Below are positions 10,344 through 61,458 of a stretch of DNA of 64,000 nucleotides, piece by piece. The position numbers and the translations under genes were made by a program. The notes below the pieces were generated by a model. It saw only the letters and a program-made list of their open reading frames with translations, did no database searches and was not told where the DNA came from. Location of the stretch: the NCBI RefSeq assembly GCF_004114375.1, contig NZ_CP034692.1, positions 3,224,001 to 3,288,000 on the forward strand, written 5' to 3'. Source of the stretch: Halorubrum sp. BOL3-1. GTDB lineage: Archaea > Halobacteriota > Halobacteria > Halobacteriales > Haloferacaceae. Each line of letters starts with the position of its first letter. Position 1 is the stretch's first letter.

Positions 10344-10349
10344 TTACCG

Positions 10350-10733: not shown

Positions 10734-10735
10734 GC

Positions 10736-14536: not shown

Positions 14537-14709
14537 GTGCGCGGAGTTCTCACAGCCAGACCGATTTCGGCCACCACGGAGTGGTTCGTGAGCCTCTCGA
14601 GTCGAGTGATCGAGGCGCGTGGACGGGTCAGCCGTAGGAGATCTCAAAACACCTCGAAGCCGACGACCGCGTCGGTATCGGCGCGGTCGTCGCGCTGAAC
14701 GCGAGTTCG

Positions 14710-17872: not shown

Positions 17873-17904
17873 GTGTACACATGGAGGTTTGTCGCGGATC
17901 ACCA

Positions 17905-17917
17905 TAGTATTGTACTA
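17905..17917 (-). promoter_or_regulatory. TAGTATTGTACTA motif upstream of the decayed tusA
   Basis: A perfect 5-bp inverted repeat around TTG (TAGTA-TTG-TACTA), 33 bases upstream of the pseudogene start. It is the most symmetric member of the motif set. Confidence 0.55.
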
Positions 17918-17997
17918 AAATCCCAATTACAAAGAAAACTGTATGAGTGCTTGTCCCCGCCCACGGAAGGTGTGAAATTCACAGTATCCTAGCGGCA

Positions 17998-18446
17998 TCA
18001 CACCAACCCAATATAGCGGTACCGGCTGTTCTCGCTGAGACCCCCGGCGTTCAGTTCTTGAGAGCCCGAATCACGCCCGTCGTACGTCGCTACGAAGTCG
18101 CCGATGAGTTGGTCCATCTTCGTGTACCAGTGATTAAGTGTCCGGTACATGTGATAGCTGACCTCTCCCGTGTTCACCACCGAGTAGACGTGGTAGTAGC
18201 CGCCTTCGTGGTAGTTTCTCTGCTCCTGCTCTACGAATCCAGTCATGAACAATCGTTGGACCGACCGATACACTGTCGACCGGTCGTACTCGACTGCTTC
18301 CGCGAGCTCGTCGACGGTGAGTGGCTTGCCCGATGATTTGAGCACCCTGAGACACGACCTGTCTAGTTCGTGTGCTCGTAGAAGCAAGTGAGCAGTTCCT
18401 CACAGTTCATATTTTGTGTGAGCTGTTCACAAACCGACTCGGACAT
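17998..18446 (-). pseudogene. Winged-HTH regulator, second decayed paralogue
   Basis: The ATG at 18446 opens MSESVCEQLTQNMNCEELLTCFYEH, matching the intact regulator. One base is missing just after this (23 instead of 24 bases before LDRSCLRVL). The rest, DELAEAVEYDRSTVYRSVQRLFMTGF and EGGYYHVYS, is intact to 17998. A TTG at 18387 could start a 129-aa protein that keeps the winged helix. Confidence 0.75.
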
Positions 18447-22742: not shown

Positions 22743-23744
22743 TCAAATTTTGTATCTATCGGCCTCGATCGGACCGCTAAACACGCCGTAGAGGAACTTG
22801 AAGTACCACAGTACAAGAAGAAGCGCGGGGAATCCGAGGATCGTCACGAGATTTAGCGCGAGTGGCGAGACAACTGCCTCTCGGACCGTCAACCCGGTTG
22901 GCGAATAAATAGTCGGATACAGTAAGAGCGCGACCAACAGGCTCAACAGCGCAGGAAGCGCGAGCGCGCTCACCAGCCAGGCACGATACTCGCCGCGCAG
23001 GGCAAGAACACTCCCACCTCCCCCCACAATGACTGACAAGATGAGGATTACACCTCCCGGAAGCGAGAGAACCGTCTCGGCAGCACCTCCAGCATCAGTT
23101 ACGACGACAGTCGTTAGCAGAGCGACAACCCCGATCAAGTACGCCAGCGTCGCGATGACTCCGTACTTGCGCAGGTCGAGAGCTAACTGTGGCCCGGTTT
23201 TAGCCGTCAGAAAGGCCGCCCCGGTGACGACCGAGACGGCGACGAGGCCGACGCCGGTCAGCAGCGCTGGTAGGGACAGCGTCGGCACGTCGAATATCCA
23301 CCGGCCGGCGAGAGTACCGAATAGCAGCGGCGCGAGGAAGCTCCCCCCGACAAAGGAGTAATCCCAGTACTGCTTCCACCGCTTGTCGTCGCGTTGCTCG
23401 CGCATTTCCGGACCGAGCCCTCGGAAGATCAGCGCGATCACGAAGCCGATCGCGAGGAGGTAATGGTCAGCCAACACTCGGGAGTACACCCGGGGGAACG
23501 CCGCGAGCAGCATCGTTCCGAAGGCGACAACCCACACCTCGTTCGCGTCCCAAACTGGACCGAACGCCGTCAAGAGGGTCTCCTTCTCGTGTTCGTCGTC
23601 ACGAGTCGCGTACAGCATCCCGATTCCGAAGTCGAACCCGTCGAGGGTGATGTACATCGCCAGCGCGAACATGACGACACCGAACCAGATCTCGGGGAGC
23701 GCGTCGACGAGATACGCGTCGACAAGCAACAACGGCTCAGTCAT
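22743..23744 (-). CDS. cydB: Cytochrome bd ubiquinol oxidase subunit II
   Basis: 333 aa, about eight to nine membrane segments. It has the family start LPEIWFGVVMFALAMYITLDGFDFGIGML and the conserved GPVWDANEVW. The ATG at 23744 lies within the end of cydA (TGATGACTGA). It partners CydA in the quinol oxidase, which reduces oxygen at high affinity and is relatively sulfide-tolerant. Confidence 0.88.
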   Translation of the reverse strand: MTEPLLLVDAYLVDALPEIWFGVVMFALAMYITLDGFDFGIGMLYATRDDEHEKETLLTAFGPVWDANEVWVVAFGTMLLAAFPRVYSRVLADHYLLAIGFVIALIFRGLGPEMREQRDDKRWKQYWDYSFVGGSFLAPLLFGTLAGRWIFDVPTLSLPALLTGVGLVAVSVVTGAAFLTAKTGPQLALDLRKYGVIATLAYLIGVVALLTTVVVTDAGGAAETVLSLPGGVILILSVIVGGGGSVLALRGEYRAWLVSALALPALLSLLVALLLYPTIYSPTGLTVREAVVSPLALNLVTILGFPALLLVLWYFKFLYGVFSGPIEADRYKI

Positions 23745-25184
23745 CACTGATCACCTTCGGAACAGGCCCATACCAGCGATCGTCATCTGACACCCTGACA
23801 CCGAGTTCGCGGAGTTCGTCTCTGACCAGCCACCGCAGCACGTAGAGGGCCACCGAGATCAATCCAATATAGATGACGATGAACCCCACGAGCGTCAGAG
23901 TCGCTTCCGTTCCGGTGAGTGTCGAGGAGACAGCTTCACTGGTTCTGAGTTCGCCCTGGATAACCCATGGTTGACGACCGATCTCGGTGACGTACCACCC
24001 CGTGAGCAGCGCCGCATAGCCGAGCGGCGACGCGGCGATGATCGTCTTCAGGAACCGGTCGCTCTCCGAGAGGCGTCCGTTGTAGATGAGATATCCGCCC
24101 CACAATGACAGCCCGATAAATAGGAATCCAAGCCCGACCATGAACCGGAACGACCAGAACACCATCGCTACGGGCGGGTTCTCCTCGTACTCGTTTAATC
24201 CGAGCACCTCGGCGTCGAAGTCACCCCCGCTAGCGAGGAACGACCCGACGCCCGGGAGACTCACAGTAAAGAGGTTATCCGCTTTCGGGTCGGTGATTGC
24301 GTCGATGCTCTTCGGGAATGCGAGCAGGTGTAAGTCCGCCGTGGCGGTCTCGTAGTGAGCTTCCATGGCCGCGAACTTCTGCGGCTGTGTGTCCGCGACG
24401 TGACGGCCATACGCGTCACCATGGACGGCCTGTAGGGGGCGGTGACGAGCAGGATGATAACTGCGAGTTTCAACGCAGTATTCCATGCGGCAGCGTCGCG
24501 CTTCTTCCAGACGATGTACGCCGAGACGCCGGCGACCAGTAGGGCGACAGAGATCACCGACGCGTTGACCATGTGTACATACATCCAAGGCATCCGCGGC
24601 GTAAAGAACGCGGCAACCGGGTCGGTTAGCTTCGCAACCTCCATCCCGTTACGCATAATCATCTCGAAGCCCTGCGGAGTCTGCATCCAAGCGTTGACGA
24701 TCAGGATCCAGAAGGCAGACAGCCAAGCTCCGACTCCAACCAGTACCGACGAGAGGATGTAGGTCCGATCACTGACGCGTTCCCGGCCGAACAGCAACAC
24801 TCCGAGGAAGACAGCCTCAAGGAAGAACGCCATCTTCGCTTCAAATGCGAGCGGCCCGCCGATCAGCTCTCCAGCTACCTCGGCAAACTGTGGGAAGTTC
24901 GTCCCGAACTGGAAGCTCATCGGGATGCCGGTGACCGTCCCCATGACGAAGCCGGTGGCAAACACCTTCACCCAGAATGACTGTAGCCGTGCGAACCGCT
25001 CGGCGTCGGTCCGGACGTCTTTCCACGTGAAGTAGATAATGAACGGCGCGAGCCCGACCGAGAGGGCGGCGAAAATGATGTGAACGCTGATCGTCCAGCC
25101 GAACTGCGCACGGCTCGCGAGCTCCGGTGAGAGCTGGAGCACCCACCCCTGAATCAAGGCGTTGAGTAGCACCATCGAGAACAT
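23737..25184 (-). pseudogene. cydA: Cytochrome bd ubiquinol oxidase subunit I, one frameshift
   Basis: The N-terminal part from the ATG at 25184 has FGWTISVHIIFAALSVG with the haem-ligand-type histidine and runs to AVIILLVTAP. The C-terminal part continues LQAVHGDAYGRHVADTQPQKFAAME, then the Q-loop motif GRQPWVIQGELRTSEAVS, and ends at 23737. One base is missing from the G run at 24435-24439 (a run of five where six restores the frame). Apart from this the gene is complete at about 480 codons. A homopolymer sequencing error is a real alternative to true inactivation. Confidence 0.85.
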
Positions 25185-39500: not shown

Positions 39501-40421
39501 TCAATCGCCGACTTCGATCGGGACGCCGATCATATTTCCCCACTCGGTCCAGGATCCGTCGTAGTTCCGCACGTGTTCGTATCCGAGCAGTTCTTCGAGG
39601 ACGAACCACGTGACTGACGAGCGCTCGCCGATCCGACAGTACACGATCATGTCGTCTTCGGGGTCGATCCCGTGCGACTCGTACACGTCCTTGAGATCGT
39701 CGGGCGATTTGAATCGGCCGTCGGGGCGGACGTTCTCGGCCCAGAAAACGTTCGTCGCTCCGGGAATATGGCCGCCGCGCATCGCTCCCTCGTTCATGCC
39801 GGGCGGCTTCGTGACGTCGCCGCGGAACTCCTCGGGCAAGCGTACGTCGATGAACACCGTGTCGGTGTCGAGTGCGTCCCGTACGTCCTCGCGATAGGCT
39901 CGAACCTCCGGCTCGGCCGGCGGATCAAGCGTGCCGCCGTACTCCACGGTGGGCAGATCGACCGGGTCAGTCGTGGTCGGATAGTCATAGTCCATCCAGT
40001 ACTCGCGGCCGCCGTCCATGATTCGAACGTCGAGGTGGCCGTAGTAGGTGAGTTGCCAGTAAAGCTGTGCTGCGAACCAGTTCGAGTTGTCACCGTAGAC
40101 GACGACAGTCGTCTCCTCGGTGATCCCGCGCGAACCGAGGAACGACACCATCTCATCGGGGCCGAGGATGTCATGTGAGTCCGCCGACCGGAGGTCCGTC
40201 TGCCAGTCAACGTGGGCGGCGCCCGGCACATGGCCCGTGTCGTAGAACGCGGTATTCACGTCGACTTCGAGCAGCCGGATGTCAGGATCTGCGGCGGCAA
40301 ACTGGTCGAGTCGTGCGTTAACCCAGTCGGGGCTGACTAGCACGTCTGTTGGGTACTGCGTTTCTGTCGATACATCGGCCCGTGTCCGCTTACCGTCATT
40401 TGGTGGATTCTCGGCCGTCAT
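39501..40421 (-). CDS. Thiosulfate/3-mercaptopyruvate sulfurtransferase, two rhodanese domains
   Basis: 306 aa. The first rhodanese domain (about 28-150) is catalytically silent, with aspartate D111 at the cysteine position (YGDNSNW). The second (about 170-300) has C262 in YCRIGERSS, the active loop. The signature GHVPGAAHVDW lies at 63-73. The start is taken at the ATG at 40421. It transfers sulfane sulfur from thiosulfate or mercaptopyruvate to an acceptor. It is followed closely upstream by an HTH regulator gene in the same direction (5 bp), probably an operon. Confidence 0.87.
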   Translation of the reverse strand: MTAENPPNDGKRTRADVSTETQYPTDVLVSPDWVNARLDQFAAADPDIRLLEVDVNTAFYDTGHVPGAAHVDWQTDLRSADSHDILGPDEMVSFLGSRGITEETTVVVYGDNSNWFAAQLYWQLTYYGHLDVRIMDGGREYWMDYDYPTTTDPVDLPTVEYGGTLDPPAEPEVRAYREDVRDALDTDTVFIDVRLPEEFRGDVTKPPGMNEGAMRGGHIPGATNVFWAENVRPDGRFKSPDDLKDVYESHGIDPEDDMIVYCRIGERSSVTWFVLEELLGYEHVRNYDGSWTEWGNMIGVPIEVGD

Positions 40422-40426
40422 AGTTG

Positions 40427-41137
40427 CTACTCTGCGAATCGTTTTGCCAGTTCTGCGGTTGCTCGTCGGAGCCGATACGATACGGTCGAACGGGGTAACT
40501 CGAGCTCGTCAGCGAGTTCGTCCAGCGTCACTTCCCGCGGCGTCTCGAAGTAGCCGCGCTCGACGGCCACGTTCAATATCTCACGCTGTTCTACACGGAT
40601 GTCCGCTCGTGAGAGGAGTTCACTTTCCCAGTAGTCGACCTCCGTCAGGTGTTCGAATGAGAACGACAGCCCCTCACCGAGCTTCGCGGACAGCGTATCG
40701 TACAGGAGCCCGATCTTCGAATCGTCCTGTACCAACACGCGCCACCGAACCCTGTCGTCGATTCGAGTCTGCTCAAAAAGTACACCGCCGTCAATGTACT
40801 TCGCCGCGATATTCGGGACGGATTCACAGTAGTCCGCATCGGAGATGTACGTGTACGCGACTCTCCGCCGTTGCTCTTCGGTTAACAGACTCGTCGTTCG
40901 GGTCGAATTACACGCCCGAGCGCTGAGTGATTCCCGATCGACGGACTCGTCCAAGAGCAGTTCGTCGACGGCCGCGAGGTCGGTCGGATCGCCTGTCACC
41001 GACTCGAGCGTCCACAGCTCCGCAGGGTCGAGACACGAGTAGATCGCCTCCGATCGGAGGGACTCGTGATCGATAAACAGGTCGACGTACTCGTCGGCGC
41101 CGGTGTCGTACGTTATCTCGAAAGTGAAGTCGTACAT
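40427..41137 (-). CDS. HTH_10 regulator upstream of the sulfurtransferase
   Basis: 236 aa. The C-terminal HTH_10 domain reads QREILNVAVERGYFETPREVTLDELADELELPRSTVSYRLRRA. The N-terminal part has cysteines in YSCLDPAELW, ARACNSTR and DYCESVP, possible sensor residues. It is 5 bp before the sulfurtransferase and divergent from the small gene at 41292, so it probably regulates its own operon. Paralogues with the same C-terminal domain are at 5601 and 63349. Confidence 0.82.
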   Translation of the reverse strand: MYDFTFEITYDTGADEYVDLFIDHESLRSEAIYSCLDPAELWTLESVTGDPTDLAAVDELLLDESVDRESLSARACNSTRTTSLLTEEQRRRVAYTYISDADYCESVPNIAAKYIDGGVLFEQTRIDDRVRWRVLVQDDSKIGLLYDTLSAKLGEGLSFSFEHLTEVDYWESELLSRADIRVEQREILNVAVERGYFETPREVTLDELADELELPRSTVSYRLRRATAELAKRFAE

Positions 41138-41715: not shown

Positions 41716-41749
41716 AGTTGTTGTGCGACAACTGAATGTATATATATAT
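41716..41749 (+). promoter_or_regulatory. Inverted repeat and TATA box of the TusA-SQR operon
   Basis: AGTTGT-TGTGCG-ACAACT is a perfect 6-bp inverted repeat (41716-41733), followed by TATATATATAT (41739-41749). The ATG at 41768 lies about 25 bases downstream of the TATA element, as expected for a leaderless transcript. The repeat is next to the position expected for BRE, where a bound protein would block initiation. Confidence 0.65.
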
Positions 41750-41767
41750 CGTTCAGGAAGGTCTACT

Positions 41768-42028
41768 ATGGGGAAAGACCAAATGAGCGACACAGAACTT
41801 AACGCCGATGTAACGGTAAACGCGGTCGGATCATCGTGTCCCGGTCCAATGATGGATCTGATCGGCAAGGCGAAAGACGTCGATCCGGGAACTGTGATTC
41901 GGCTACAGAGTGCGAACGAAGGAACGGAACCAGACGTCTCGGAGTGGGCCGAGCAGTCCGGAAACAAACTGATCGAGGTAACCGACCGCGACGACCACTG
42001 GGACCTGTACGTACGGATCAATGACTGA
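41768..42028 (+). CDS. TusA-family sulfur carrier heading the SQR operon
   Basis: 86 aa from the ATG at 41768 (an ATG at 41783 would give 81 aa). C24 lies in GSSCPGPMMDLIG. It differs clearly from the TusA of modules A and B (CPGP instead of CPMP) and matches the decayed copy at 17628-17872. It overlaps the SQR start by 8 bp. It probably takes up or delivers the sulfur handled by the SQR-like flavoproteins. Confidence 0.88.
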   Translation: MGKDQMSDTELNADVTVNAVGSSCPGPMMDLIGKAKDVDPGTVIRLQSANEGTEPDVSEWAEQSGNKLIEVTDRDDHWDLYVRIND

Positions 42029-43166
42029 ACGAATCGTCATCGTCGGCGGCGGGACGGCCGGGTCTGTCTTAGCGAACAACCTCGCCGATGAGGTCGCTAC
42101 GGAGATCGATGCGGGCGACGTTGAGGTCGTCCTCGTCAACGACCGTGAGGAGCACGTCTACAAGCCGACGTGGCTGTACGTTCCCTTCGGGGAGAAGACC
42201 CCCGAAGACGCGAAGCGACCGCTTAATGACCTGATCAACGGACACGTCGATCTAGTGATAGATCGGGTCAGCGCCGTCAACACCGACGCTGAGACGGTGT
42301 CGTTCGACGGGAGCCGGGACGACCTCGCGTACGACCACCTCGTGCTCGCGATGGGCGCACAGGTGACACCGGAGGAGACGCCGGGGCTGGCCGAGGGCGG
42401 TCACCACTTCTACGGGCCCGAGGCGACTGCGGAGCTTCGCGAGGAGCTCGCGGAGTTCACTGGGGGCCATCTCGTGATGTCCGTCATCGGTGTACCGCAC
42501 ATGTGTCCGGTCGCACCGCTTGAGTTCCCGCTCATAGCCGATACGTGGCTGCGCGAGCGGGGCCTGCGCGAGAACGTCGACATCACGTATACCTACCCGA
42601 TCAACCGCGCTCACGGGATCGAGTCCGTGGCTGAGTGGGTCGGGCCACTGATGGAAGAACGGGACATCACCGTGGAGACGTTCTTCAACCCCGAGCGGGT
42701 CGACCCCGACGACCAGGTCGTCCACACGGTAGAGGGCCGGGAACTGGCGTACGACCTCCTAGTGTCGATCCCACCGCACGACGGGAGCGACATCGTCCGG
42801 GAAGCCGGTCTCGGTGAGGACGGCTGGGTCGACGTCGACCCAGCGACGCTTGAGGCGACCAACGCCGAGAACGTGTACGCCCTCGGTGACATCGCAGACC
42901 TACCGACGAGCAAGGCCGGTAGCGCGGCCCACTACGCGGCCACGTCGCTGGCCAGCCGGTTGGCGAGCGTCGTCCGTGGCCAACGTCCCACCACCGAGTA
43001 CGACGGGAAGACCGTCTGCTTTATCGAGAGCGGCGAGGACGAGGCGACGTACATCGCCTTCGACTACGAGGAGGAGCCGACGCCGAAGCCGCCCTCCAAG
43101 CTCATCCACTGGTCGAAGCTGGGGTACAATCAGTCGTACTGGCTGACCGCCCGAGGGGTGTTGTGA
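42021..43166 (+). CDS. SQR-type FAD-dependent oxidoreductase 1
   Basis: 381 aa. There is an FAD-binding VIVGGGTAGSVLANNL at the N-terminus and a second FAD motif YALGDIADLP (286-295). Cysteines C162 (PHMCPVAP) and C333 (KTVCFIESG) are placed like the redox pair of sulfide:quinone oxidoreductases. The C-terminus (SKLIHWSKLGYNQSYWL) is amphipathic, suiting membrane contact. It is expected to oxidise sulfide or a persulfide and reduce quinone. It is the second gene of the operon. Confidence 0.85.
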   Translation: MTERIVIVGGGTAGSVLANNLADEVATEIDAGDVEVVLVNDREEHVYKPTWLYVPFGEKTPEDAKRPLNDLINGHVDLVIDRVSAVNTDAETVSFDGSRDDLAYDHLVLAMGAQVTPEETPGLAEGGHHFYGPEATAELREELAEFTGGHLVMSVIGVPHMCPVAPLEFPLIADTWLRERGLRENVDITYTYPINRAHGIESVAEWVGPLMEERDITVETFFNPERVDPDDQVVHTVEGRELAYDLLVSIPPHDGSDIVREAGLGEDGWVDVDPATLEATNAENVYALGDIADLPTSKAGSAAHYAATSLASRLASVVRGQRPTTEYDGKTVCFIESGEDEATYIAFDYEEEPTPKPPSKLIHWSKLGYNQSYWLTARGVL

Positions 43167-43831
43167 TGGGCGCAAGCGACGACGAAGCGGGCGAGAACGC
43201 AAACGTCAATCCGGAGGGGCTCCCGCCGGAGGTCCGCGAGGCAATCGCAGATAATCCCGAGACCGTCGCCACACTGCTGGAGCAGTCGGGTCAGCTGTCG
43301 GCGATGCTCGACGCGCTCGCGCTTGTCGAGGACGGCCTCGACGACGATATGGTCGAGTCACTTACGAGTGACGCGACAACGCTCGGTCTGGCCGCGACGG
43401 AGCTCGCCGACCAGGGGACGGTTGAACTCGGTTCGGCTGTCGGTGAGAACGGCGACGAACTCGCCGCAGCCGTCCAGCGGATCGCAGCACTCCAGCGGAC
43501 CGGTACCCTTGACCGCCTCACAGAGATCGCCGATGCGGTCGCGCTCCTGACTGACGCAATGGACGACGAGATGGTGGAAACCGTCGCTTCGACCGGTACC
43601 TCTCTTGGTGAGTTCGCCGATACGGCCACCGAAGACGAGGTGAGCCACGGTCTCGTCCGCATGCTGGACGGTGTCGGTGAGGCCGGCGCCGGTGAAGCCG
43701 ATCCGGTCGGACCGATTGGTCTGATCAGCGCCCTCCGTGATCCCGAGGTCAAGGCAGGGATGGGATATCTCGTCGCAGTTGCCCGTGGGATCGGCGCTGC
43801 GGGCCCGGGAGTGAACGAACTGAACGACTAA
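43163..43831 (+). CDS. DUF1641 protein 1
   Basis: 222 aa, acidic, nearly all helical, with two similar blocks (LVEDGLDDDMVESLTSDATTLG and LTDAMDDEMVETVASTGTSLG) and the DUF1641-type end GPIGLISALRDPEVKAGMGYLVAVARGIG. It overlaps the SQR stop by 4 bp. DUF1641 proteins accompany SQR-like and formate-dehydrogenase-type flavoproteins, so it is probably a structural or regulatory subunit of the complex. Function unproven. Confidence 0.8.
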   Translation: MMGASDDEAGENANVNPEGLPPEVREAIADNPETVATLLEQSGQLSAMLDALALVEDGLDDDMVESLTSDATTLGLAATELADQGTVELGSAVGENGDELAAAVQRIAALQRTGTLDRLTEIADAVALLTDAMDDEMVETVASTGTSLGEFADTATEDEVSHGLVRMLDGVGEAGAGEADPVGPIGLISALRDPEVKAGMGYLVAVARGIGAAGPGVNELND

Positions 43832-43853
43832 TGACTGCCACACTACACTCACT

Positions 43854-45029
43854 ATGACAGCGACACGACCAACCGTCCTCATTCTCGGTAGTGGTGCCGC
43901 GGGGACGATGACAGCAAACGCGCTCCGTCGGCGCATCGACGCCGACGTGACCGTGATCGACAAGAGCCGGACGCACAGCTATCAGCCCGCCTACTACCTG
44001 ATCCCGTTCGGGTACATGGACCTCGACGAGCATCAGCGCGACACGCGCGAGTTGCTCCACAACGACGTCGAGTTCGTTCAAGACGAGGTCGTCGGGGTCG
44101 ACCCAGACGAGCAGACCGTCTCCGGTGAGAACGGCACCTACGAGTACGACATCCTCATCTCCGCGGTGGGGAACAATCTCCGTCCGGACGCGGTCCCGGG
44201 GATGCTCGAGGGGTGGAACCAGACGGACTCCGTGTATCCGTTCTATCATGTCTCCGCGGCGCGAGCGATGGGCGATGCAGTCGACGAGTTCGACAGCGGG
44301 CGCTTCCTCGTGACGGTCCCGGACACGCCGATCAAGTGCGGCGGCGCGCCGCTGAAACTCACGATGCTGATGGAGGAGTACCTCCGTAAGCGCGGTGTCC
44401 GCGAGGACGCCGAGGTCGTAATGACAAAGCCCGGGTCGGAAGTGTTCGGCACGGGGCCGAAGGCCCCGTATCAAGAGCAGATCGAAGAGATCTGGGACGA
44501 CCGTGACATCACGTTCGTGCCCGATTTCACCGTTTCCGAGGTCGACTACGAGAATCAGACGGTACACTCAGAGGAGGGTGATGCCTTGGAGTACGACCTG
44601 TACGCGCCAGTTCCCCCGCAGTACGGACACGAGTTTGTCGTCAAGAACTCGCCGTTGACCGACGGCGGCGAGTACGTCTCCGTCAATGACAACACGCTCC
44701 AACACGAGACGTATCCGAACGTGTTCGCGCTCGGCGACAACGCGGACGTGCCGACCTCGCGAACCGCCTCGGCCGCGCGCAAACAGTCACACGTCGTCGT
44801 GGACAACGTCGAGCGATATCTTGCAGATCGGTCGCTCGCACCCGACTACGACGGATACACTGCCTGTCCGATTCTCGTCGAGAAGGGGAAGGCGATGATC
44901 GCGGAGTTCGATTACGAGAGTCCTATTTCCGCGCCGGTCGTGAGTCGGCTCAACTGGATCCTCGACATCAACGTGATTCCCTCGCTGTACTGGAACGTCT
45001 GGATGCGCGGATACGATCCGGTTCCCTGA
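43854..45029 (+). CDS. SQR-type FAD-dependent oxidoreductase 2
   Basis: 391 aa. FAD motif LILGSGAAGTMTANAL; second FAD motif FALGDNADVP (291-300). Redox cysteines C162 (IKCGGAPLK) and C338 (YTACPILVEKG) agree with classic SQR, more clearly than in SQR 1. The C-terminal part (WILDINVIPSLYWNVWM) suits an interfacial membrane anchor. It starts 22 bp after DUF1641. Confidence 0.87.
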   Translation: MTATRPTVLILGSGAAGTMTANALRRRIDADVTVIDKSRTHSYQPAYYLIPFGYMDLDEHQRDTRELLHNDVEFVQDEVVGVDPDEQTVSGENGTYEYDILISAVGNNLRPDAVPGMLEGWNQTDSVYPFYHVSAARAMGDAVDEFDSGRFLVTVPDTPIKCGGAPLKLTMLMEEYLRKRGVREDAEVVMTKPGSEVFGTGPKAPYQEQIEEIWDDRDITFVPDFTVSEVDYENQTVHSEEGDALEYDLYAPVPPQYGHEFVVKNSPLTDGGEYVSVNDNTLQHETYPNVFALGDNADVPTSRTASAARKQSHVVVDNVERYLADRSLAPDYDGYTACPILVEKGKAMIAEFDYESPISAPVVSRLNWILDINVIPSLYWNVWMRGYDPVP

Positions 45030-45033
45030 ATCC

Positions 45034-45960
45034 ATGAGTGAGACATCACCCGACGTGGACGCGTTCGCGGCCGGCACCGACGCCGATATTGACGAGTTAG
45101 CCGCCCGCGTCGACGCACAGGCCGACGACCTGATCGCGCTGTTGGATTTGCTCACCGTCGTGCGCGGCCTGAGCGACGATCTCGTGCCGGAACTGCGGAC
45201 GGCCGCAGCGGAGAACCGTGAGTCGCTGGCCGACCTGCGGACCTCCCTCGAGAACGAGGAGACGAGAAAGCTGGTTGAGCAGGTAGGCGATAACGCCGAT
45301 TCGCTGGCTGACCTACTCGATCTGCTGGTCGTCGCACAGGACCTCTCGGCGGAACTCGTTCCCGAATTGCGTACCATCGCCGCCGAGAACCGCGGGGAGA
45401 TCGCGCGGCTCCGCATGGCGTTTGAGCACGAGGAAACGCTGACCCTGTTGCGCCAAATCGGCCATAACACCGACACGTTCCTTGACCTGCTGTCGACGCT
45501 TGAAGTCGCGAGCGACGCGCTTGCGGATGTTGCTCCCGAAGACGAGGCGGCCGCTTCAGCTGCGCGCGAAGACGTTCGCCGGCTTGCTACGGCGTTCGAC
45601 CGTACAGAGTCCGTCGACACGCTCGTCGCTCTCGGTGAGAACATGGAGACAGTCCGCGGGCTACTTGCGCTCGTGGAGGGTTTCGGCGACGCTGCCGACC
45701 GCGGCACCGAGGAGTACTATCAGCTCGGCGCACAGTTGGGACAGGCCGCTGACCTAGCTGAACAAGCGAGCGACCCTCAGATCGTCGAGACGCTCGATGC
45801 CGGTGCAAGCGCTTTTACCGACAAGACGACCGATCGACGGGTCGGTCTGTTCGGGCTGATATCGGCTCTGCGAAACGACGACGTCCAGCGGACGTTCGGC
45901 ACGCTCGTCGAAGCGGCTGAGCGTGTCGGCCAAACGCGGGACTCCAGCCGTTCAGAGTAA
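45034..45960 (+). CDS. DUF1641 protein 2, expanded
   Basis: 308 aa, acidic and helical, with three copies of a helical unit (LDLLTVVRGLSDDLVPELRTAAAENRESL, LDLLVVAQDLSAELVPELRTIAAENRGEI, LDLLSTLEVASDALADVAPE) before the DUF1641-like end GLFGLISALRNDDVQRTFGTLVEAAERVG. It starts 4 bp after SQR 2. The repeat number is larger than in the first DUF1641 gene. Probable partner of SQR 2. Confidence 0.78.
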   Translation: MSETSPDVDAFAAGTDADIDELAARVDAQADDLIALLDLLTVVRGLSDDLVPELRTAAAENRESLADLRTSLENEETRKLVEQVGDNADSLADLLDLLVVAQDLSAELVPELRTIAAENRGEIARLRMAFEHEETLTLLRQIGHNTDTFLDLLSTLEVASDALADVAPEDEAAASAAREDVRRLATAFDRTESVDTLVALGENMETVRGLLALVEGFGDAADRGTEEYYQLGAQLGQAADLAEQASDPQIVETLDAGASAFTDKTTDRRVGLFGLISALRNDDVQRTFGTLVEAAERVGQTRDSSRSE

Positions 45961-46232: not shown

Positions 46233-47161
46233 TGCTCTGTTGAATAGACGTTGAGTCACGGTTACAGCGACTCACACAGTGGTTCTATGTTGCTGATGGC
46301 GAACATCAGGACAATTTCACGGAACTGTCGATACCAGCTCAGCGCTCGCACGGCATCGCCGAGCGAGCGCTTCGTTGTCGAGTAGGATGTTTCGGCCATC
46401 CACCGCTGAGCGTAGCCGTTTGCTCGGTTGAGCGCGTTGTTCGCAGCTGCTTTCGCTGACGAACCACGGTAGTGGACGAGGTACTCAACGTCATGTGCGG
46501 CGATTTCGTACTCGGTATGCCAGTCTTGGAAGCCGTTATCGGCGGCGACGGACTGCAGGTCGTCCGCGTTTCGGCGGACGACCTGCGGTCCGGTCTTTGT
46601 ATCATGCTTCCACCGTGCTGCGATGTGAACATCGAGAACAGCAAGTGATTCCACATCAGTCAATGTCGTCGCTTTGAGCGTCTGTATTGTTCGTCCTGCC
46701 CGCTGGCGGAAGTACGATGACGCACGTCGGCGGTCGAAAAACGTGCTGTCGAGCGCAGCGTGGCCAGACTGCGGGTGCTGCTGCGCGGAAACGCGCAGCA
46801 GCGCCCGCCACACCCACATTTTCAGCCGATCAAACGACTTGTAGATCGTCGTATGATCGGGGAGATCGTCCTGATCTAAGTTGAGCGCATCACGAACCTC
46901 GGCCATGTACTTCAGCCGATTCGGCGTTTCACGGTAGCTGCGCTCGTCTTCGACCCGAAAACAGTGTAAAACGACGTGAACCCAGCGGGCGAACCCGCCG
47001 CTGGCGGGCTCGCCCGCGTGCTTCCCTAACGCTTGTTTAGCTAGGTCACGACACTGCTCAATGAAGTCGAGGATGTCGATCTCCATGGTAGGTTCGATTT
47101 TCTCGGCTTCACCCTTCTAAACCGGTGATATCGGCTAATAAGATCGCTCTTCAACAGAGCA
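46233..47161 (-). mobile_element. IS5-type insertion sequence, left copy
   Basis: 929 bp with terminal inverted repeats TGCTCTGTTGAA / TTCAACAGAGCA. It contains a single transposase gene. I find no base difference from the right copy, so the duplication is very recent or maintained by conversion. Confidence 0.88.
46262..47086 (-). CDS. IS5-family transposase
   Basis: 274 aa. It begins MEIDILDFIEQCRDLAKQALGKH and has the DDE residues in ALDSTFFDRRRASSYF, then VAADNGFQDW, and the C-terminal AETSYSTTKRSLGDAVRA with the Y-(2)-R-(3)-E-(6)-K-like order of the family. It is complete, so the element is probably active. Confidence 0.87.
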   Translation of the reverse strand: MEIDILDFIEQCRDLAKQALGKHAGEPASGGFARWVHVVLHCFRVEDERSYRETPNRLKYMAEVRDALNLDQDDLPDHTTIYKSFDRLKMWVWRALLRVSAQQHPQSGHAALDSTFFDRRRASSYFRQRAGRTIQTLKATTLTDVESLAVLDVHIAARWKHDTKTGPQVVRRNADDLQSVAADNGFQDWHTEYEIAAHDVEYLVHYRGSSAKAAANNALNRANGYAQRWMAETSYSTTKRSLGDAVRALSWYRQFREIVLMFAISNIEPLCESL

Positions 47162-48793: not shown

Positions 48794-50839
48794 CTATCCC
48801 ACGGTCCCATCATCCGGATCCCCGTCCACGCTGACACCATCAGGTGAATAGTTGAGCTCATTATCGTTATCAGATATTTCTACACCATCTACGAAAAATG
48901 TTCGAGAACCTTGATCAAATTCGGCTGTAGCAACGCCTGACGCATCTATTCTTGATTCTTGTTCGGTACTATCATCAATTCTAATATCACCAGATGCATC
49001 TAAATTAACTTTGCCAACCGCGTCAATTTGAATACCTGATGCCCTTACACCACTCTCTTCAGCATCCAATGTCACGCCATTGTTGTTAGTTGTTATATCA
49101 GTGTTCCTTGCGCTGATCTCGCCGGCTGTGAATGTCACACCATTGTTGTTGGTTGTTATATCAGCGTTCCTCACGCTGATTTCGTCGGCTGTGATTTTTA
49201 GCTTTCCAGTGCGGGTGATTGTAGCATCATCTAGGGTTGCTCTTGTGGATTTTTTCAGCGTTGTAGAACCTTCTGAGTCAATGCTAGCTCCTGTAATATC
49301 AATTGGCCCAGCATTCTTTGTATTGAATGTCACACCATTGTTGTTGGTTGTTATATCAGCGTTCCTCACGCTGATTTCGTCGGCTGTGACTTTTAGCTTT
49401 CCAGTGCGGGTGATTGTAGCATCATCCAGGGTTGCTCTTGTAGATTTTTTCAGCGTTGTAGAACCTTCTGAGTCAATGCTAGCTCCTGTAATATCAATTG
49501 GCCCAGCATTCTTTGTATTGAATGTCACACCATTGTTATTGGTTGTTATATCAGTGTTCCTTGCGCTGATCTCATCGGCTGTGACTTTTAGCTTTCCAGT
49601 GCGGGTGATTGTAGCATCATCCAGGGTTGCTCTTGTAGATTTTTTCAGCGTTGTAGAACCTTCTGAGTCAATGCTAGCTCCTGTAATATCAATTGGCCCA
49701 GCATTCTTTGTATTGAATGTCACACCATTGTTGTTGGTTGTATAGTCAACTCTAGACGTGATCTTATCGGCTGTGATCGATATTTTCCCATTAGATATTT
49801 CCCCACCTCCTACATCCGATGGGATTACAAGATTAACATTCTCATCAAATTTATATAACTCACTCTCTTTATATGTCGGATCACCCTCCTCGTATTCTAA
49901 GTCATCATTAGGATCTGCATATGCGAAAGGACCGTCTGGGACACCTCCTACTGAGTCATCACTGTCATCTTTCTCCGTCCCTCCGTTGCCACCAACACGT
50001 ACAGCATCGTTCTGAGTCGGATCCTCAGGTGCTTTTTGTACGCCAACCGTATTCACTGTCAGGTTGCTGGCGGTTGTCTCAAGCGTCAGGTTGTATACAT
50101 TATCGTCATCTGGATCGCTAACACTGTACTTATTATTCGGAATATCAGTTTCATTCCAGTACTCGCTGTTGTTCAACCGTGTCGGGACAGTAACATTGAG
50201 GTCACCTTCTGGAATTTCACCACTGACATCCTCAGCTGGGCGAAGTTCAAGAGTAACTTGGTCGGTTCCACTTCGGCGAAATTCGTTCTGGAGAGCCGTG
50301 ATTTGTACCTCACCGTCATCAAAGAGAGTCTGGTCTTCAATCACTGCGATTCTACCCCCCTTGTCACGAGCATCGAGGTAAAGCACGGATGCGTCATACC
50401 ACGTCGGAGAACGATCAAGCTCATTGTATCCCGGCTGATACTCGATAAATCGTGTTGGAATCGTTACGGTCCCTTCAGATGTGCCACTTTTGTTCGAGAT
50501 AGTGATCGGATATGGATCGGTTGTTCGTATGGTTCCAGCTGGTGAAGGTGGATTTATTGTGAATGTGCGGGGCGAATACGCAGTGCCCAGCTGAACCGTC
50601 TGATACTGTGGCTGGTCGATGCTGCCAGCTTGTAGAATGCCTGCTCTAAGCTCAACAAGGTCGTTACGAACCTCTCCAGAGTGTTGGAACTCAGCCTCCG
50701 TATTCTGTTGTGGAACGACCTCCACCTGATACAGTGAGAGCGCAAGAATCAGAAACCCAAATAGAATAACAACCCCGATGACTGACGAAACAGCACGATT
50801 GTCGTCTATCGCTGATGTGCCAATGGGGTAGTCGCTCAT
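48794..50839 (-). CDS. Pilin-like exported protein with long tandem repeats
   Basis: 681 aa from the ATG at 50839. DNRAVSSVIGVVILFGFLILALSLYQ (residues 13-38) is an archaeal pilin-type N-terminal helix. About 330 residues of beta-rich, acidic sequence follow, then at least three copies of a 65-residue unit with alternating hydrophobic residues (DITGASIDSEGSTTLKKSTRATLDDATITRTGKLKVTADEI shape), as in a beta-helix. It is low in GC. The start overlaps the HExxH membrane gene by 4 bp. Probably a surface or adhesion protein anchored by the N-terminal helix. Confidence 0.7.
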   Translation of the reverse strand: MSDYPIGTSAIDDNRAVSSVIGVVILFGFLILALSLYQVEVVPQQNTEAEFQHSGEVRNDLVELRAGILQAGSIDQPQYQTVQLGTAYSPRTFTINPPSPAGTIRTTDPYPITISNKSGTSEGTVTIPTRFIEYQPGYNELDRSPTWYDASVLYLDARDKGGRIAVIEDQTLFDDGEVQITALQNEFRRSGTDQVTLELRPAEDVSGEIPEGDLNVTVPTRLNNSEYWNETDIPNNKYSVSDPDDDNVYNLTLETTASNLTVNTVGVQKAPEDPTQNDAVRVGGNGGTEKDDSDDSVGGVPDGPFAYADPNDDLEYEEGDPTYKESELYKFDENVNLVIPSDVGGGEISNGKISITADKITSRVDYTTNNNGVTFNTKNAGPIDITGASIDSEGSTTLKKSTRATLDDATITRTGKLKVTADEISARNTDITTNNNGVTFNTKNAGPIDITGASIDSEGSTTLKKSTRATLDDATITRTGKLKVTADEISVRNADITTNNNGVTFNTKNAGPIDITGASIDSEGSTTLKKSTRATLDDATITRTGKLKITADEISVRNADITTNNNGVTFTAGEISARNTDITTNNNGVTLDAEESGVRASGIQIDAVGKVNLDASGDIRIDDSTEQESRIDASGVATAEFDQGSRTFFVDGVEISDNDNELNYSPDGVSVDGDPDDGTVG
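49072..49790 (-). repeat. 195-bp tandem repeats
   Basis: The marker AATGTCACAC recurs at 49131, 49326, 49521 and 49716, an exact 195-bp period, with only a few base differences between units. A shorter 59-bp unit lies on the left and a partial one on the right. The period is a multiple of three and preserves the frame of the 48794-50839 gene. Confidence 0.9.
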
Positions 50840-51237
50840 TGTGGATTCACCTGAACACTCTGTGTATCTTCTGCCGATGGCCAAATGGCTAGTCGAATAT
50901 CTGCTGGGCTCGGGGCGATATACAGGAACCAGTACGCAGTCACAAGGTGATGAATGTAGTATGGGTCAGCGGTTTTAATCTGTTGCCAAATACCGGTTTG
51001 AATAGCGATGGCAGCAGCCACGCCGCCGACAAATAGAGGGGCAAGTGCAATCATCCGAAGTGTGGCTTTTGCCGGTAGTCTCTCAAAATCAAGACGGAGT
51101 CGGAGCGGGACCCATGAGGTATGTTCAATCGAAAGCGGGCAGGCAATCCGGGCGACTGCTAGGTGGGTTAGCTCATGGAGTCCTATCGCAAGAACCGGGA
51201 AACCGACAGCGAGAAAGATTGCTTGAACTCCAGCCAT
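50836..51237 (-). CDS. Membrane HExxH protein, M50-like
   Basis: 133 aa. HELTH (H21 to H25) lies in the first hydrophobic segment (GFPVLAIGLHELTHLAVARIA), as in membrane-embedded zinc proteases. A second hydrophobic region (LRMIALAPLFVGGVAAAIA) and a third near YWFLYIAPSPADIRLAIWPS follow; the last has a P-x-D-like pair as in the second metal site of small M50 relatives. It is translationally coupled to the repeat protein. A role in processing or releasing that protein is inferred. Confidence 0.65.
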   Translation of the reverse strand: MAGVQAIFLAVGFPVLAIGLHELTHLAVARIACPLSIEHTSWVPLRLRLDFERLPAKATLRMIALAPLFVGGVAAAIAIQTGIWQQIKTADPYYIHHLVTAYWFLYIAPSPADIRLAIWPSAEDTQSVQVNPQ

Positions 51238-51396: not shown

Positions 51397-52325
51397 TGCT
51401 CTGTTGAATAGACGTTGAGTCACGGTTACAGCGACTCACACAGTGGTTCTATGTTGCTGATGGCGAACATCAGGACAATTTCACGGAACTGTCGATACCA
51501 GCTCAGCGCTCGCACGGCATCGCCGAGCGAGCGCTTCGTTGTCGAGTAGGATGTTTCGGCCATCCACCGCTGAGCGTAGCCGTTTGCTCGGTTGAGCGCG
51601 TTGTTCGCAGCTGCTTTCGCTGACGAACCACGGTAGTGGACGAGGTACTCAACGTCATGTGCGGCGATTTCGTACTCGGTATGCCAGTCTTGGAAGCCGT
51701 TATCGGCGGCGACGGACTGCAGGTCGTCCGCGTTTCGGCGGACGACCTGCGGTCCGGTCTTTGTATCATGCTTCCACCGTGCTGCGATGTGAACATCGAG
51801 AACAGCAAGTGATTCCACATCAGTCAATGTCGTCGCTTTGAGCGTCTGTATTGTTCGTCCTGCCCGCTGGCGGAAGTACGATGACGCACGTCGGCGGTCG
51901 AAAAACGTGCTGTCGAGCGCAGCGTGGCCAGACTGCGGGTGCTGCTGCGCGGAAACGCGCAGCAGCGCCCGCCACACCCACATTTTCAGCCGATCAAACG
52001 ACTTGTAGATCGTCGTATGATCGGGGAGATCGTCCTGATCTAAGTTGAGCGCATCACGAACCTCGGCCATGTACTTCAGCCGATTCGGCGTTTCACGGTA
52101 GCTGCGCTCGTCTTCGACCCGAAAACAGTGTAAAACGACGTGAACCCAGCGGGCGAACCCGCCGCTGGCGGGCTCGCCCGCGTGCTTCCCTAACGCTTGT
52201 TTAGCTAGGTCACGACACTGCTCAATGAAGTCGAGGATGTCGATCTCCATGGTAGGTTCGATTTTCTCGGCTTCACCCTTCTAAACCGGTGATATCGGCT
52301 AATAAGATCGCTCTTCAACAGAGCA
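51397..52325 (-). mobile_element. IS5-type insertion sequence, right copy
   Basis: The same 929 bp as the left copy, in the same orientation, with terminal repeats TGCTCTGTTGAA / TTCAACAGAGCA. Confidence 0.88.
51426..52250 (-). CDS. IS5-family transposase, right copy
   Basis: The 274-aa product is identical to that of the left copy at 46262-47086. Both copies are complete and could mobilise the composite unit and the 127-bp MITE. Confidence 0.87.
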   Translation of the reverse strand: MEIDILDFIEQCRDLAKQALGKHAGEPASGGFARWVHVVLHCFRVEDERSYRETPNRLKYMAEVRDALNLDQDDLPDHTTIYKSFDRLKMWVWRALLRVSAQQHPQSGHAALDSTFFDRRRASSYFRQRAGRTIQTLKATTLTDVESLAVLDVHIAARWKHDTKTGPQVVRRNADDLQSVAADNGFQDWHTEYEIAAHDVEYLVHYRGSSAKAAANNALNRANGYAQRWMAETSYSTTKRSLGDAVRALSWYRQFREIVLMFAISNIEPLCESL

Positions 52326-59197: not shown

Positions 59198-60391
59198 TCA
59201 GTCACCCGCGAGCGACTCTTGACTCGCCGCGCAGTTGTTGGGGCCGAGTTCGAGCGTGAACGCTTCCTCGTCGTCGACGGTGTTCTGCCCGAGGTTCGTC
59301 GCGATAATGTCCTCGTAGTTGGCCGGCCGCGGAGGCATGTCCGAGAGGATCAGGTCGACGAACTCGTCCTCGTCCATCGTGAGCGCGTCCATCTCCGCGA
59401 CGAGGTCACCGACGGGTGCGGTGTAGGTGCCGTCATCGGCGGGCTCGGCGGCGTCGCTGAAGTGTGCGCCCCCAACCAGGGTGTCGTCGGGCAACGCCAG
59501 GACGCGCTCTCGGAGCGACTCGTAGAGCATGCGCGCGGCGTCGGGCGCGCCCTCGTCGCCCTCCTCGAGGTCGGGGCGGGCGACGCTCTCGACGAACAGT
59601 CCGTCGCCGGTCGCGAGCAGACTCCCGTCGACGAGGTAGGAGGTCATCCCCGTGGTGTGGCCGGGCGTGTGAACGGTCTCGATGGTGGCGTCGCCGATCT
59701 GGAAGGTGTCGCCGTCAGCGGCGTTCGCCAGGTCGTCGGCGTACGTGACGCCGCGGTCGACGGCCGCGTTCGGGATGACGCCCTCGACGCCCGCGTCGTC
59801 GAGATCACGCACGCCGGAGATGTGGTCGGCGTGGACGTGGGTGTCCAGCGCGTACTTCAGGTCGACACCGAGGTCGTCGGCGTCGGCGAGGTAGCGGTCG
59901 GTGAACGCCCGCAGCGGGTCGATGATCGCGGCCTCACCGTCGTCGTAGAGGAAGTAGCCGAGACAGCCGGAAGAGGGACGCTGGTACTGGAGGAGCGTGC
60001 CGGCGCCGTCGTAGTCGGTGACTTCGACGGTTTCGTAGATGCTCGCCCAGCCGTTCATGCCGTCTTCGAGGTGGTCGACCTCGTAGTCGCGCTCGACGAG
60101 CGTGCCCGCGACGTACTCGCTGGCGCCGCCCTTCGCGCACAGGACGGTCACCTCGCGGTCGTCGGGAATACGGTCGAGAACGTCGTCGTCGATCTCGTCG
60201 TCGAGGAACTCGAAGTAGGGGACGTTGATCGACGTGACGTTCTCGCCGTCGATACGCCACTCCTCGTAGTCGGAACCCATCCGCGTGTCGAGGAGCGTCA
60301 CGTCGTCACCGGCGTCGATGCGGTCCTTCAGCGTCTCCGGCTCGACCGACGCCACGGCGACGTCGGGAGTCGGGAAGTCGTCAGCGTTCAT
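59198..60391 (-). CDS. Rhodanese-MBL fusion, persulfide dioxygenase-like (module B)
   Basis: 397 aa from the ATG at 60391 (MNADDFPTPD), the same length as the module A copy. C85, THVHADH (H185, H187, D189, H190) and C387 in GPNNCAA are all conserved. Bases 59194-60241 show no difference from 8652-9699, while the first 40 or so codons and the upstream YeeE genes differ. The function is as for module A: oxidation of persulfide to sulfite. Confidence 0.87.
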   Translation of the reverse strand: MNADDFPTPDVAVASVEPETLKDRIDAGDDVTLLDTRMGSDYEEWRIDGENVTSINVPYFEFLDDEIDDDVLDRIPDDREVTVLCAKGGASEYVAGTLVERDYEVDHLEDGMNGWASIYETVEVTDYDGAGTLLQYQRPSSGCLGYFLYDDGEAAIIDPLRAFTDRYLADADDLGVDLKYALDTHVHADHISGVRDLDDAGVEGVIPNAAVDRGVTYADDLANAADGDTFQIGDATIETVHTPGHTTGMTSYLVDGSLLATGDGLFVESVARPDLEEGDEGAPDAARMLYESLRERVLALPDDTLVGGAHFSDAAEPADDGTYTAPVGDLVAEMDALTMDEDEFVDLILSDMPPRPANYEDIIATNLGQNTVDDEEAFTLELGPNNCAASQESLAGD

Positions 60392-60451
60392 ATCGGACAA
60401 CAACACCTACCGGCCTGACGCACAAAAGTATTTTCATAGTATTTCCTTTAC

Positions 60452-60463
60452 TAAGCAATACTA
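60452..60463 (-). promoter_or_regulatory. TAGTATTGCTTA motif upstream of rhodanese-MBL (module B)
   Basis: The minus strand reads CAGTAGTATTGCTTAGTAAAG, about 60 bases before the start, the same distance as in module A. Confidence 0.52.
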
Positions 60464-60590
60464 CTGTGGCTGAAGAAGCGCTTCATAGTGAAGAATCCCA
60501 AAATAAAGATTTATTCGGGTCTGTAAGAGAACCCGGTCTGAGAGTGGTTTGTAATAAACACAATGACCGACAATCTTTTAATCTAGCACC

Positions 60591-60602
60591 GAATATTGTG
60601 CG
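60591..60602 (+). promoter_or_regulatory. Motif and promoter upstream of tusA (module B)
   Basis: GAATATTGTGCG lies 36 bases before the TusA start; TTTTAA is at 60577-60582 and TTAGCTCCAATACAG follows. The arrangement is conserved with 10035-10080. Confidence 0.55.
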
Positions 60603-60637
60603 TTAGCTCCAATACAGACCACCGGAGCAGATAACCA

Positions 60638-60883
60638 ATGAGTGCCGAATACGACATCGCGGAGACGCTCGACGTGAAAGGCGCATCGTGCCCCATGCCC
60701 GTTGTGAAGACGAAGGGAGCCACCGACGACCTCGCGGCCGGCGACGTCCTCGAAGTGGTGGCGACCGATTCCGGTAGCATGAGCGACCTCGACGGATGGG
60801 CGGCCGGCACCGCCAGCGTCGAGCTCCTCGATCAAGAGGCCGGAGACGACGTGTACAAACACTACGTGCGCAAGACGGAGTGA
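60638..60883 (+). CDS. TusA-family sulfur carrier protein (module B)
   Basis: 81 aa with GASCPMPVVKTKG, the carrier cysteine C18. It directly precedes DsrE2 (2 bp); the DsrE gene found between them in module A is missing. Many synonymous differences from 10098-10343 show that this part of the module was not homogenised. Confidence 0.9.
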   Translation: MSAEYDIAETLDVKGASCPMPVVKTKGATDDLAAGDVLEVVATDSGSMSDLDGWAAGTASVELLDQEAGDDVYKHYVRKTE

Positions 60884-60885
60884 CG

Positions 60886-61458
60886 ATGAGCACGGACACA
60901 CCCGACGCGTCGGCCGACGACGCGCCCTCGCGTGCGGAGCTTGCTGCCCGCGTCGACGAACTCGAGGACGCGCTCGCCGACGCCACCGGCGAGGACGACT
61001 CCAAGAAGATGAGCATCATCGCGACGAAGGGGACGCTCGACATGGCGTACCCGCCGCTCATCCTCGCCAGCACCGCCGCCGCGTTCGGCTACGAGGTGAC
61101 CGTCTTCCACACGTTCTGGGGGCTGGAGATCCTCCACGAGGAGCGCTCGAAGAACCTCAAGCTGAGCTCCGTTGGCAATCCCAACATGCCGGTCCCGAAC
61201 GCGGTCGCGGCGCTCCCGGGCATGGACCGCGTGACGACGAAGATGATGGAGCGGAAAATCGACGACAACGACACCGCGAGTGTCGAGGAACTGCTCGAGA
61301 CGAGCCTCGACATGGGCGTAGAGTTCCAAGCCTGCCAGATGACTATCGACCTGATGGACTACGACGAGGACGACTTCTACGACGGCGTTACGACCGGCGT
61401 CGGCGCTGCGACCGCCCTCCAAGACATGGTAGACGCCGACATCCAGCTCCTCGTCTGA
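60886..61458 (+). CDS. DsrE2-like sulfur transfer protein (module B)
   Basis: 190 aa from the ATG at 60886, the same length as the module A protein, with C150 in FQACQMTIDLM. The N-terminal 20 residues differ, and bases 60960-61319 are identical to 10810-11169. It is the last gene of module B. Confidence 0.87.
   Translation: MSTDTPDASADDAPSRAELAARVDELEDALADATGEDDSKKMSIIATKGTLDMAYPPLILASTAAAFGYEVTVFHTFWGLEILHEERSKNLKLSSVGNPNMPVPNAVAALPGMDRVTTKMMERKIDDNDTASVEELLETSLDMGVEFQACQMTIDLMDYDEDDFYDGVTTGVGAATALQDMVDADIQLLV

Follow-up and report, generated by a model that had tools for sequence, protein, structure and literature searches.

Five genes on the forward strand of Halorubrum sp. BOL3-1 form a compact operon in the window (the whole stretch of 64,000 nucleotides that was analysed), encoding a TusA-type sulfur carrier and two flavoproteins of the sulfide:quinone oxidoreductase (SQR) family, each followed by a DUF1641 protein (Table 1). 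The gene set, order and tight spacing originally predicted agree with the open reading frame coordinates and Pfam matches: all genes overlap or lie less than 25 bp apart, with an 8-bp overlap between TusA and SQR1, a DUF1641-1 start that overlaps the SQR1 stop, a 22-bp gap ahead of SQR2, and 4 bp between SQR2 and DUF1641-2. TusA matched PF01206 with 52 bits (cut-off, 28.6) and carries the CPxP-type cysteine motif as CPGP, both SQRs matched Pyr_redox_2 above its cut-off, and both DUF1641 proteins exceeded the curated PF07849 cut-off of 21. The TusA start was placed by start conservation in relatives, and the TTG of the listed open reading frame is disfavoured; an alternative in-frame ATG at 41768 would give a protein of 86 aa. 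The true start of DUF1641-1 is probably the ATG, rather than the GTG at 43163 of the listed frame.

Table 1. Features of the SQR-DUF1641 operon and its upstream region, with positions in the window.
Feature	Position	Strand	Basis
Two-domain rhodanese, conserved neighbour	39501..40421	-	PF00581; same surroundings in relatives
HTH-10 regulator, HVO_2928 type	40427..41137	-	PF24281, PF04967
18-bp palindrome AGTTGTTGTGCGACAACT, candidate operator	41716..41733	.	consensus AGTTGTCG-TG-CGACAACT
TusA-type sulfur carrier, CPGP motif, 81 aa	41783..42028	+	PF01206 E 5e-14; start set by relatives
SQR1, SQR-family flavoprotein, TusA-linked archaeal lineage, Cys162/Cys333	42021..43166	+	human SQOR E 1e-42; tree
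DUF1641-1, SQR1 partner, without 58-residue repeat	43166..43831	+	PF07849 45 bits; repeat test
SQR2, type II-like sulfide:quinone oxidoreductase, Cys162/Cys338	43854..45029	+	human SQOR E 8e-59
DUF1641-2, SQR2 partner, 58-residue tandem helical repeats, C-terminal DUF1641 motif	45034..45960	+	PF07849 32 bits

Both flavoproteins had been predicted to hold a cysteine pair in SQR-like positions, and this was confirmed: each pair aligns with both cysteines of human SQOR and is invariant across 22 SQR1 and 24 SQR2 homologues. Judged by sequence, SQR1 and SQR2 are members of two old lineages, separated by a deep split in the tree. Residues near the cysteines are fixed within each lineage and differ between them (SQR2/SQR1: K161/M161, K168/E168, F198/H198, K310/Y305, Y335/K330 and P339/F334). 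SQR2 resembles human SQOR and bacterial type II SQRs in fold, FAD motifs and cysteine pair, and shares with type II enzymes the PIKCxGAPxK and YxxCP surroundings as well as the proximity of rhodanese and persulfide dioxygenase genes. The two-dinucleotide-binding flavoprotein fold of a 90%-identical orthologue of SQR2 matches that of human SQOR (TM 0.9), and SQR-type chemistry is supported for SQR2. Unlike bacterial type II SQRs, SQR2 has a DUF1641 gene directly downstream (DUF1641 adjoined none of 60 bacterial type II-like SQR loci), and its C-terminus stops 5 residues past the RG motif, whereas the bacterial homologues are usually longer-tailed. SQR1, assigned by sequence only and with human SQOR as its best match, lacks the type II active-site surroundings (PIKCxGAPxK, CP) and was therefore not filed as type II. 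The best NCBIfam match of both SQRs was the type III selenoprotein model NF049943, at 335 and 315 bits, below its cut-off of 525. The notion that these SQRs have lost their entire C-terminal membrane anchor, with DUF1641 as a substitute, is only partly true, as SQR2 retains most of the segment. The C-terminal segment of SQR1 is shorter, and we keep the substitution idea as a weak hint.

The expanded helical repeats proposed for the second DUF1641 protein proved to be real and have a period of 58 residues (autocorrelation 0.74; as strong in 0 of 300 shuffles), with units beginning at residues 30, 88, 146 and 204. This repeat was found in all 22 SQR2-partner DUF1641 proteins and in none of the 21 SQR1 partners, and recurs in the DUF1641 of a distant archaeal SQR2-like pair. 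In each haloarchaeal operon checked, SQR1 is followed by the DUF1641-1 type and SQR2 by the DUF1641-2 type. These lineage-specific types, with the YjlC-YjlD complex as a precedent, support the two flavoprotein-DUF1641 pairs put forward earlier. Structural comparison was less informative: a PDB search with DUF1641-1 alone gave no meaningful match, and the AlphaFold2 model of DUF1641-2 alone (pLDDT 42) was too poor for fold comparison. The modelling check proposed for SQR2 and DUF1641-2 was run on a stand-in for the complex, a joined chain read through a stop codon in Halobellus rarus (L094). The SQR part was modelled well, but no confident interface was obtained (pTM 0.60; pLDDT about 38 in the DUF1641 part). 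Because the DUF1641 part was poorly modelled, this result does not refute an interface.

SQR-family genes occur in over half of the haloarchaeal genomes sampled, and an SQR of these lineages lies at most 3 kb away from 141 of the 150 haloarchaeal DUF1641 matches listed; SQR-DUF1641 adjacency also reaches non-haloarchaeal members of the phylum. More than a hundred SQR-DUF1641 pairs were thereby located, one of them on plasmid pHH400 of Haloarcula hispanica (HAH_RS17630-17620). The five-gene order is intact in seven genomes, namely that of the window and six other haloarchaea (loci L039, L041, L043, L079, L181 and L182), two of which carry the operon on plasmids. TusA-SQR1-DUF1641-1 without the SQR2 module is the usual arrangement, many haloarchaea having the SQR1 module only. 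SQR2-DUF1641-2 stands alone at L059 and L094 and is accompanied by TusA only at L060/L080. Since the pairs also occur separately, we regard them as modules and not as parts of one obligatory complex. Solo SQR2 copies, with no DUF1641 adjoining, were seen at L061 and L062. A sulfur-carrier link, suggested earlier for both pairs, is supported for SQR1, to which TusA is linked in nearly all loci mapped. This association is specific to SQR1; in place of TusA, most SQR2 modules are accompanied by a rhodanese and a persulfide dioxygenase, and many neighbour rhodanese, persulfide dioxygenase, peroxiredoxin and CydAB genes.

Characterized DUF1641 proteins suggest, by analogy, that the family links soluble dehydrogenases to the quinone pool. 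Like the SQR pairs, the ForCE formate dehydrogenase of Bacillus subtilis joins a soluble dehydrogenase to a dedicated DUF1641 protein (ForE) and has menaquinone as acceptor; menaquinone binding and quinone reduction both require ForE (PMC8808070), which is found in a complex with ForC (PMC13397495). The catalytic partner there is a molybdenum enzyme, however, in contrast to the SQR flavoprotein here, and DUF1641-2 is longer than ForE and carries the 58-residue repeats; its profile match to ForE1 (E 0.014) is weak and limited to the C-terminal 55 residues. YjlC, also of Bacillus, is a DUF1641 protein (PMC12020853) that adjoins, and has been modelled with, a flavoprotein from the same superfamily as SQR, the NDH-2 YjlD (a crosslinking model, according to the title of PDB entry 9a63). 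YjlD oxidises NADH rather than sulfide, and this pair is without TusA. The HucM stalk of the Huc hydrogenase, an amphipathic helical partner that supplies a soluble enzyme with menaquinone (PMC10017518), offers a functional analogy only; no sequence match between HucM and DUF1641-2 was found.

We therefore consider it fairly probable, following the ForE and YjlC precedents, that a single promoter drives two separable sulfide:quinone oxidoreductase modules in this operon, each SQR with a ForE/YjlC-like DUF1641 partner. We infer SQR-DUF1641 binding and the quinone role of DUF1641, along with the acceptors and the direction in which sulfur moves. Each SQR would oxidise sulfide at its FAD via the cysteine pair and pass electrons to menaquinone, and the DUF1641 helper probably connects its SQR to this membrane electron carrier; it may keep at the membrane a flavoprotein that would otherwise be soluble, form its quinone site, or both. 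Sulfane sulfur from SQR1 would be handed to TusA, and that from the type II-like SQR2 to sulfide or a small thiol. A rhodanese and an MBL-rhodanese persulfide dioxygenase could then produce sulfite for export by TauE/SafE, and terminal oxidases, in many relatives especially cytochrome bd, would reoxidise the quinol.

Whether the operon serves sulfide detoxification and not energy gain appears evenly balanced. Detoxification is the usual context of type II SQRs, haloarchaea are mostly heterotrophs, and neighbouring genes for persulfide dioxygenase, rhodanese and TauE are in keeping with such a role; electrons would nonetheless still reach the respiratory chain, and detoxification is compatible with the two-module explanation. 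It is somewhat unlikely that the substrates are split, with SQR2 oxidising free sulfide and SQR1, not a true SQR, passing electrons to quinone from TusA-bound sulfur or from a persulfide that is either organic or carried on a protein. The SQR1-TusA linkage, the lineage-specific cysteine surroundings and the deep separation in the tree all point this way, but SQR1 keeps both catalytic cysteines and, given the many haloarchaea with SQR1 only, can act without SQR2. We think it unlikely that SQR1 is a TusA-coupled sulfane-sulfur oxidoreductase and SQR2 a sulfide oxidase, each docked to the membrane by its own DUF1641 protein, with the repeat DUF1641 as a helical scaffold or conduit carrying menaquinone to a soluble flavoprotein and the family as an adaptor that generally couples unrelated dehydrogenases to quinone. 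A role of DUF1641 as a transient assembly or stability factor (for instance in FAD insertion or folding), and not as a subunit, is quite improbable: ForC activity with an artificial acceptor does drop about 50-fold without ForE, a structural role in the known case, yet ForE is retained when the complex is purified and is required for quinone binding (PMC8808070), and YjlC and YjlD stand together in the crosslinking-based model titled as such in PDB 9a63. The single stable complex of all five proteins that was first proposed is very unlikely despite the tight order preserved in seven genomes, since each module occurs without the other.

SQR genes are reported to be very abundant in a salt-flat metagenome, haloarchaeal MAGs included, yet to be not typical of haloarchaea (PMC9765009). 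The uncharacterized archaeal SQRs of hypersaline metagenomes, comprising haloarchaeal MAG SQRs and archaeal SQR clusters (PMC9765009, PMC13384644), are among the close known counterparts. The term DUF1641 is absent from both papers, and the available text describes neither a TusA link nor a two-module operon for these SQRs. Haloarchaeal SQR-family genes gain a partner and a sulfur carrier, as well as a candidate operator, and the role of a family named for its "unknown function" can be tested in strains that are tractable. Should DUF1641 prove to be an adaptor that generally links soluble dehydrogenases to quinone, a single assay would account for several families of enzymes.

Of the promoter elements noted earlier, the inverted repeat ahead of the operon is real and conserved. 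With 0-3 mismatches, the palindrome precedes the first gene at 9 related loci, against a chance expectation of 0.06 per 64 kb with up to 3 mismatches allowed. Elsewhere in the genome there were only 3-mismatch matches, not above the reversed control, and no regulon emerged. The strong TATA box fared less well: the TATATATAT run is present but is not conserved among relatives. The HTH-10 gene, a candidate regulator of the five-gene operon, adjoins or neighbours the operon at L039, L041, L043, L059, L060 and L079.

The gene order TusA-SQR-DUF1641-SQR-DUF1641 of the original prediction was borne out together with its tight spacing, as neighboring genes overlap or stand at most 22 bp apart and each family was confirmed with Pfam. 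Every part of the operon falls in an already known family, and together they represent a widespread, little-examined archaeal SQR-DUF1641 partnership, with two lineages and one combined operon. The host is a haloarchaeon, and at least 31 other sampled genomes with a homologue of SQR1 (the TusA-linked flavoprotein) belong to the same genus; Halorubrum kocurii (L079) carries a complete operon copy, with proteins 83%–93% identical to those of the window.

Features of the window and of compared loci (L-numbers)
Feature	Position	Strand	Remark
TusA	41783-42028		First operon gene; Pfam family over cut-off
SQR1	42021-43166		Second operon gene; Pfam family over cut-off
DUF1641-1	43166-43831		Third operon gene; Pfam family over cut-off
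SQR2	43854-45029		Fourth operon gene; Pfam family over cut-off
DUF1641-2	45034-45960		Fifth operon gene; Pfam family over cut-off
Sulfur block, two copies	8656-11308; 59198-61458		Metallo-beta-lactamase-rhodanese, TusA, DsrE2; proteins 81%–96% identical; additional DsrE in 8656-11308
Degraded TusA-SQR1-DUF1641	15990-17875	minus	Second copy; frameshifts, one in-frame stop, SQR C-terminal half lost
Inverted ends of insert	16302-16343/16609-16650		42 nt each; insert of about 350 bp in degraded copy
cydAB	22743-25133	minus	cydA broken across two reading frames near 24435; cydB intact
Transposase genes	46262-47086; 51426-52250		Equal length, same N-terminus, same orientation
Repetitive protein	48794-50884	minus	696 aa; several near-identical repeats (TNNNGVTFNTKNAGPIDITGASIDSEGS...)
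L061 SQR2	17046-18221		Solo, no adjacent DUF1641
L062 SQR2	14165-15340		Solo, no adjacent DUF1641
L074 DUF1641-2 homologue	2706-3761		352 aa
L170 SQR2-like-DUF1641 pair and neighbors	3506-7772		Followed by NarI/DsrM-like membrane protein and DsrK/HdrD-type CCG/4Fe-4S protein

Among 292 haloarchaeal genomes, at least 170 encode DUF1641 and at least 159 an SQR1- or SQR2-like protein (E ≤ 1e-40), and 141 of the 150 haloarchaeal DUF1641 matches listed have an SQR1/SQR2-like gene within 3 kb. Surroundings were inspected for five of the nine remaining matches: those of L175 and L180 adjoin a more divergent SQR1, that of L179 has an SQR1 remnant alongside, one is the degraded copy of the window itself, and no SQR was found alongside DUF1641 in L174. 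TusA-SQR1-DUF1641 is the commonest form of the module. Fewer genomes (29/292) have the SQR2 form, usually arranged as rhodanese-SQR2-DUF1641, often with peroxiredoxin and cytochrome bd genes downstream and a metallo-beta-lactamase-rhodanese-type persulfide dioxygenase alongside. The window shares its five-gene form, in which both modules are joined, with six further genomes: L039, L041, L043, H. kocurii, and two that have it on a plasmid, Halobaculum halobium and Halobellus limi (L181 and L182). The modules can be separated: L059 and Halobellus rarus (L094) have SQR2-DUF1641-2 alone, and L060/L080 have it with only TusA.

The two predicted flavoprotein-DUF1641 pairs recur throughout the mapped haloarchaeal loci. 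The DUF1641-1 type directly follows every intact SQR1 mapped where downstream sequence was covered, and the DUF1641-2 type follows every SQR2 except the solo copies of L061 and L062 and the divergent L097. As the L061 and L062 genomes also carry an SQR2-DUF1641 pair about 10–13 kb away, they offer a natural test of whether one DUF1641 can serve two SQRs. The expanded helical repeats proposed for DUF1641-2 proved to be a 58-residue period, found in all 22 DUF1641-2-type proteins, each exceeding the maximum of all shuffles, and in 0 of 21 DUF1641-1-type proteins, many of which have a weak 74-residue period. The same 58-residue period occurs in the DUF1641 partner of the distant SQR2-like protein of L170, from another family of the phylum, although this partner is just 23% identical to the window's (the SQR2-like protein, 37%). 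Repeat type thus tracks SQR lineage across great distance, the trace that a specific SQR-DUF1641 partnership would leave. In the L074 homologue, the 58-residue units are very alike (autocorrelation 2.25), which suggests a recent expansion.

For both flavoproteins the best solved relative is human SQOR (E 1e-42 for SQR1, 8e-59 for SQR2), and the predicted model of Halobellus rarus SQR2, 90% identical to the window's, has a TM-score of 0.9 to it. The cysteine pair noted at SQR-like positions aligns in both with the catalytic cysteines of SQOR and is invariant across all homologues examined, and from family membership we infer SQR chemistry for both. In a maximum-likelihood tree, whose deepest forks may reflect long-branch joining, SQR2 forms one clade (support 100/100), and SQR1 groups in another with TusA-linked SQRs from L165 and L168 (100/99). 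SQR2 shares K161, K168, F198, R309, K310, Y335, and P339 with bacterial type II enzymes, versus the equally invariant M161, E168, H198, H304, Y305, K330, and F334 of SQR1, residues that sit near the cysteines and also elsewhere in the protein. Given these distinct invariant residues, it is plausible that SQR1 and SQR2 differ in acceptor or substrate.

A role for DUF1641 in coupling SQR to quinone would rest on analogy with good precedents. Haloarchaea use menaquinone. In Bacillus, the formate dehydrogenase ForC needs the DUF1641 protein ForE to bind menaquinone and reduce quinone (PMC8808070), and the solved ForCE structure has lipids at the interface (PMC13397495; PDB 8rqz). YjlC is another DUF1641 protein (PMC12020853), which, by its entry title, a crosslinking model contains together with the NDH-2 flavoprotein YjlD (PDB 9a63). 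A Huc-type hydrogenase operon includes a DUF1641 gene (PMC12976888), and in Ignicoccus a DUF1641 protein and a flavoprotein with neighboring gene numbers go up together (PMC3149612). No transmembrane-like stretch was found in any SQR or DUF1641 protein of the window, which would fit a soluble SQR flavoprotein docked by its DUF1641 partner. Structure prediction of a joined SQR2-DUF1641-2 chain gave no confident interface, and DUF1641-2 was poorly modeled both there and by itself.

The inverted repeat reported before the operon is real, being one copy of an 18-bp palindrome, AGTTGTCG-TG-CGACAACT, which precedes the first gene, with 0–3 mismatches, in L039, L041, L043, L059, L060/L080, L079, L094, L181, and L182 (0.06 matches expected by chance per 64 kb at this stringency) and is retained ahead of SQR2 where TusA-SQR1-DUF1641-1 is missing. 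The TATATATAT run, read as a strong TATA box in the original prediction, is not conserved in related loci. An HTH-10 regulator gene adjoins or is near the operon in most palindrome-bearing loci, and its product is the natural candidate to bind the palindrome.

Outside haloarchaea, TusA-SQR1-DUF1641 and other SQR-DUF1641 pairs were found within the phylum (L161–L165, L168, L170–L172), and none of 60 bacterial SQR2 homologues had a DUF1641 gene within the stretch searched, which extended at most 7 kb to either side. The L170 neighborhood may provide a further connection with a membrane complex linked to quinone or thiol. A 2Fe-2S/FAD oxidoreductase adjoins the DUF1641 gene in place of SQR in L169 and L167, with a CCG/ferredoxin protein also beside it in L169, which suggests that DUF1641 has further partners.

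Elsewhere in the window, the SQR1 segments of the degraded copy are nearer to resident copies of related genomes (61%–82%) than to the operon's SQR1 (54%–62%), as if the intact operon had replaced it. The cydAB genes adjoin the SQR operon in L039 and L041, but not in the window or H. kocurii. Just downstream of the operon, the two transposase genes flank a recombinase and the repetitive protein.
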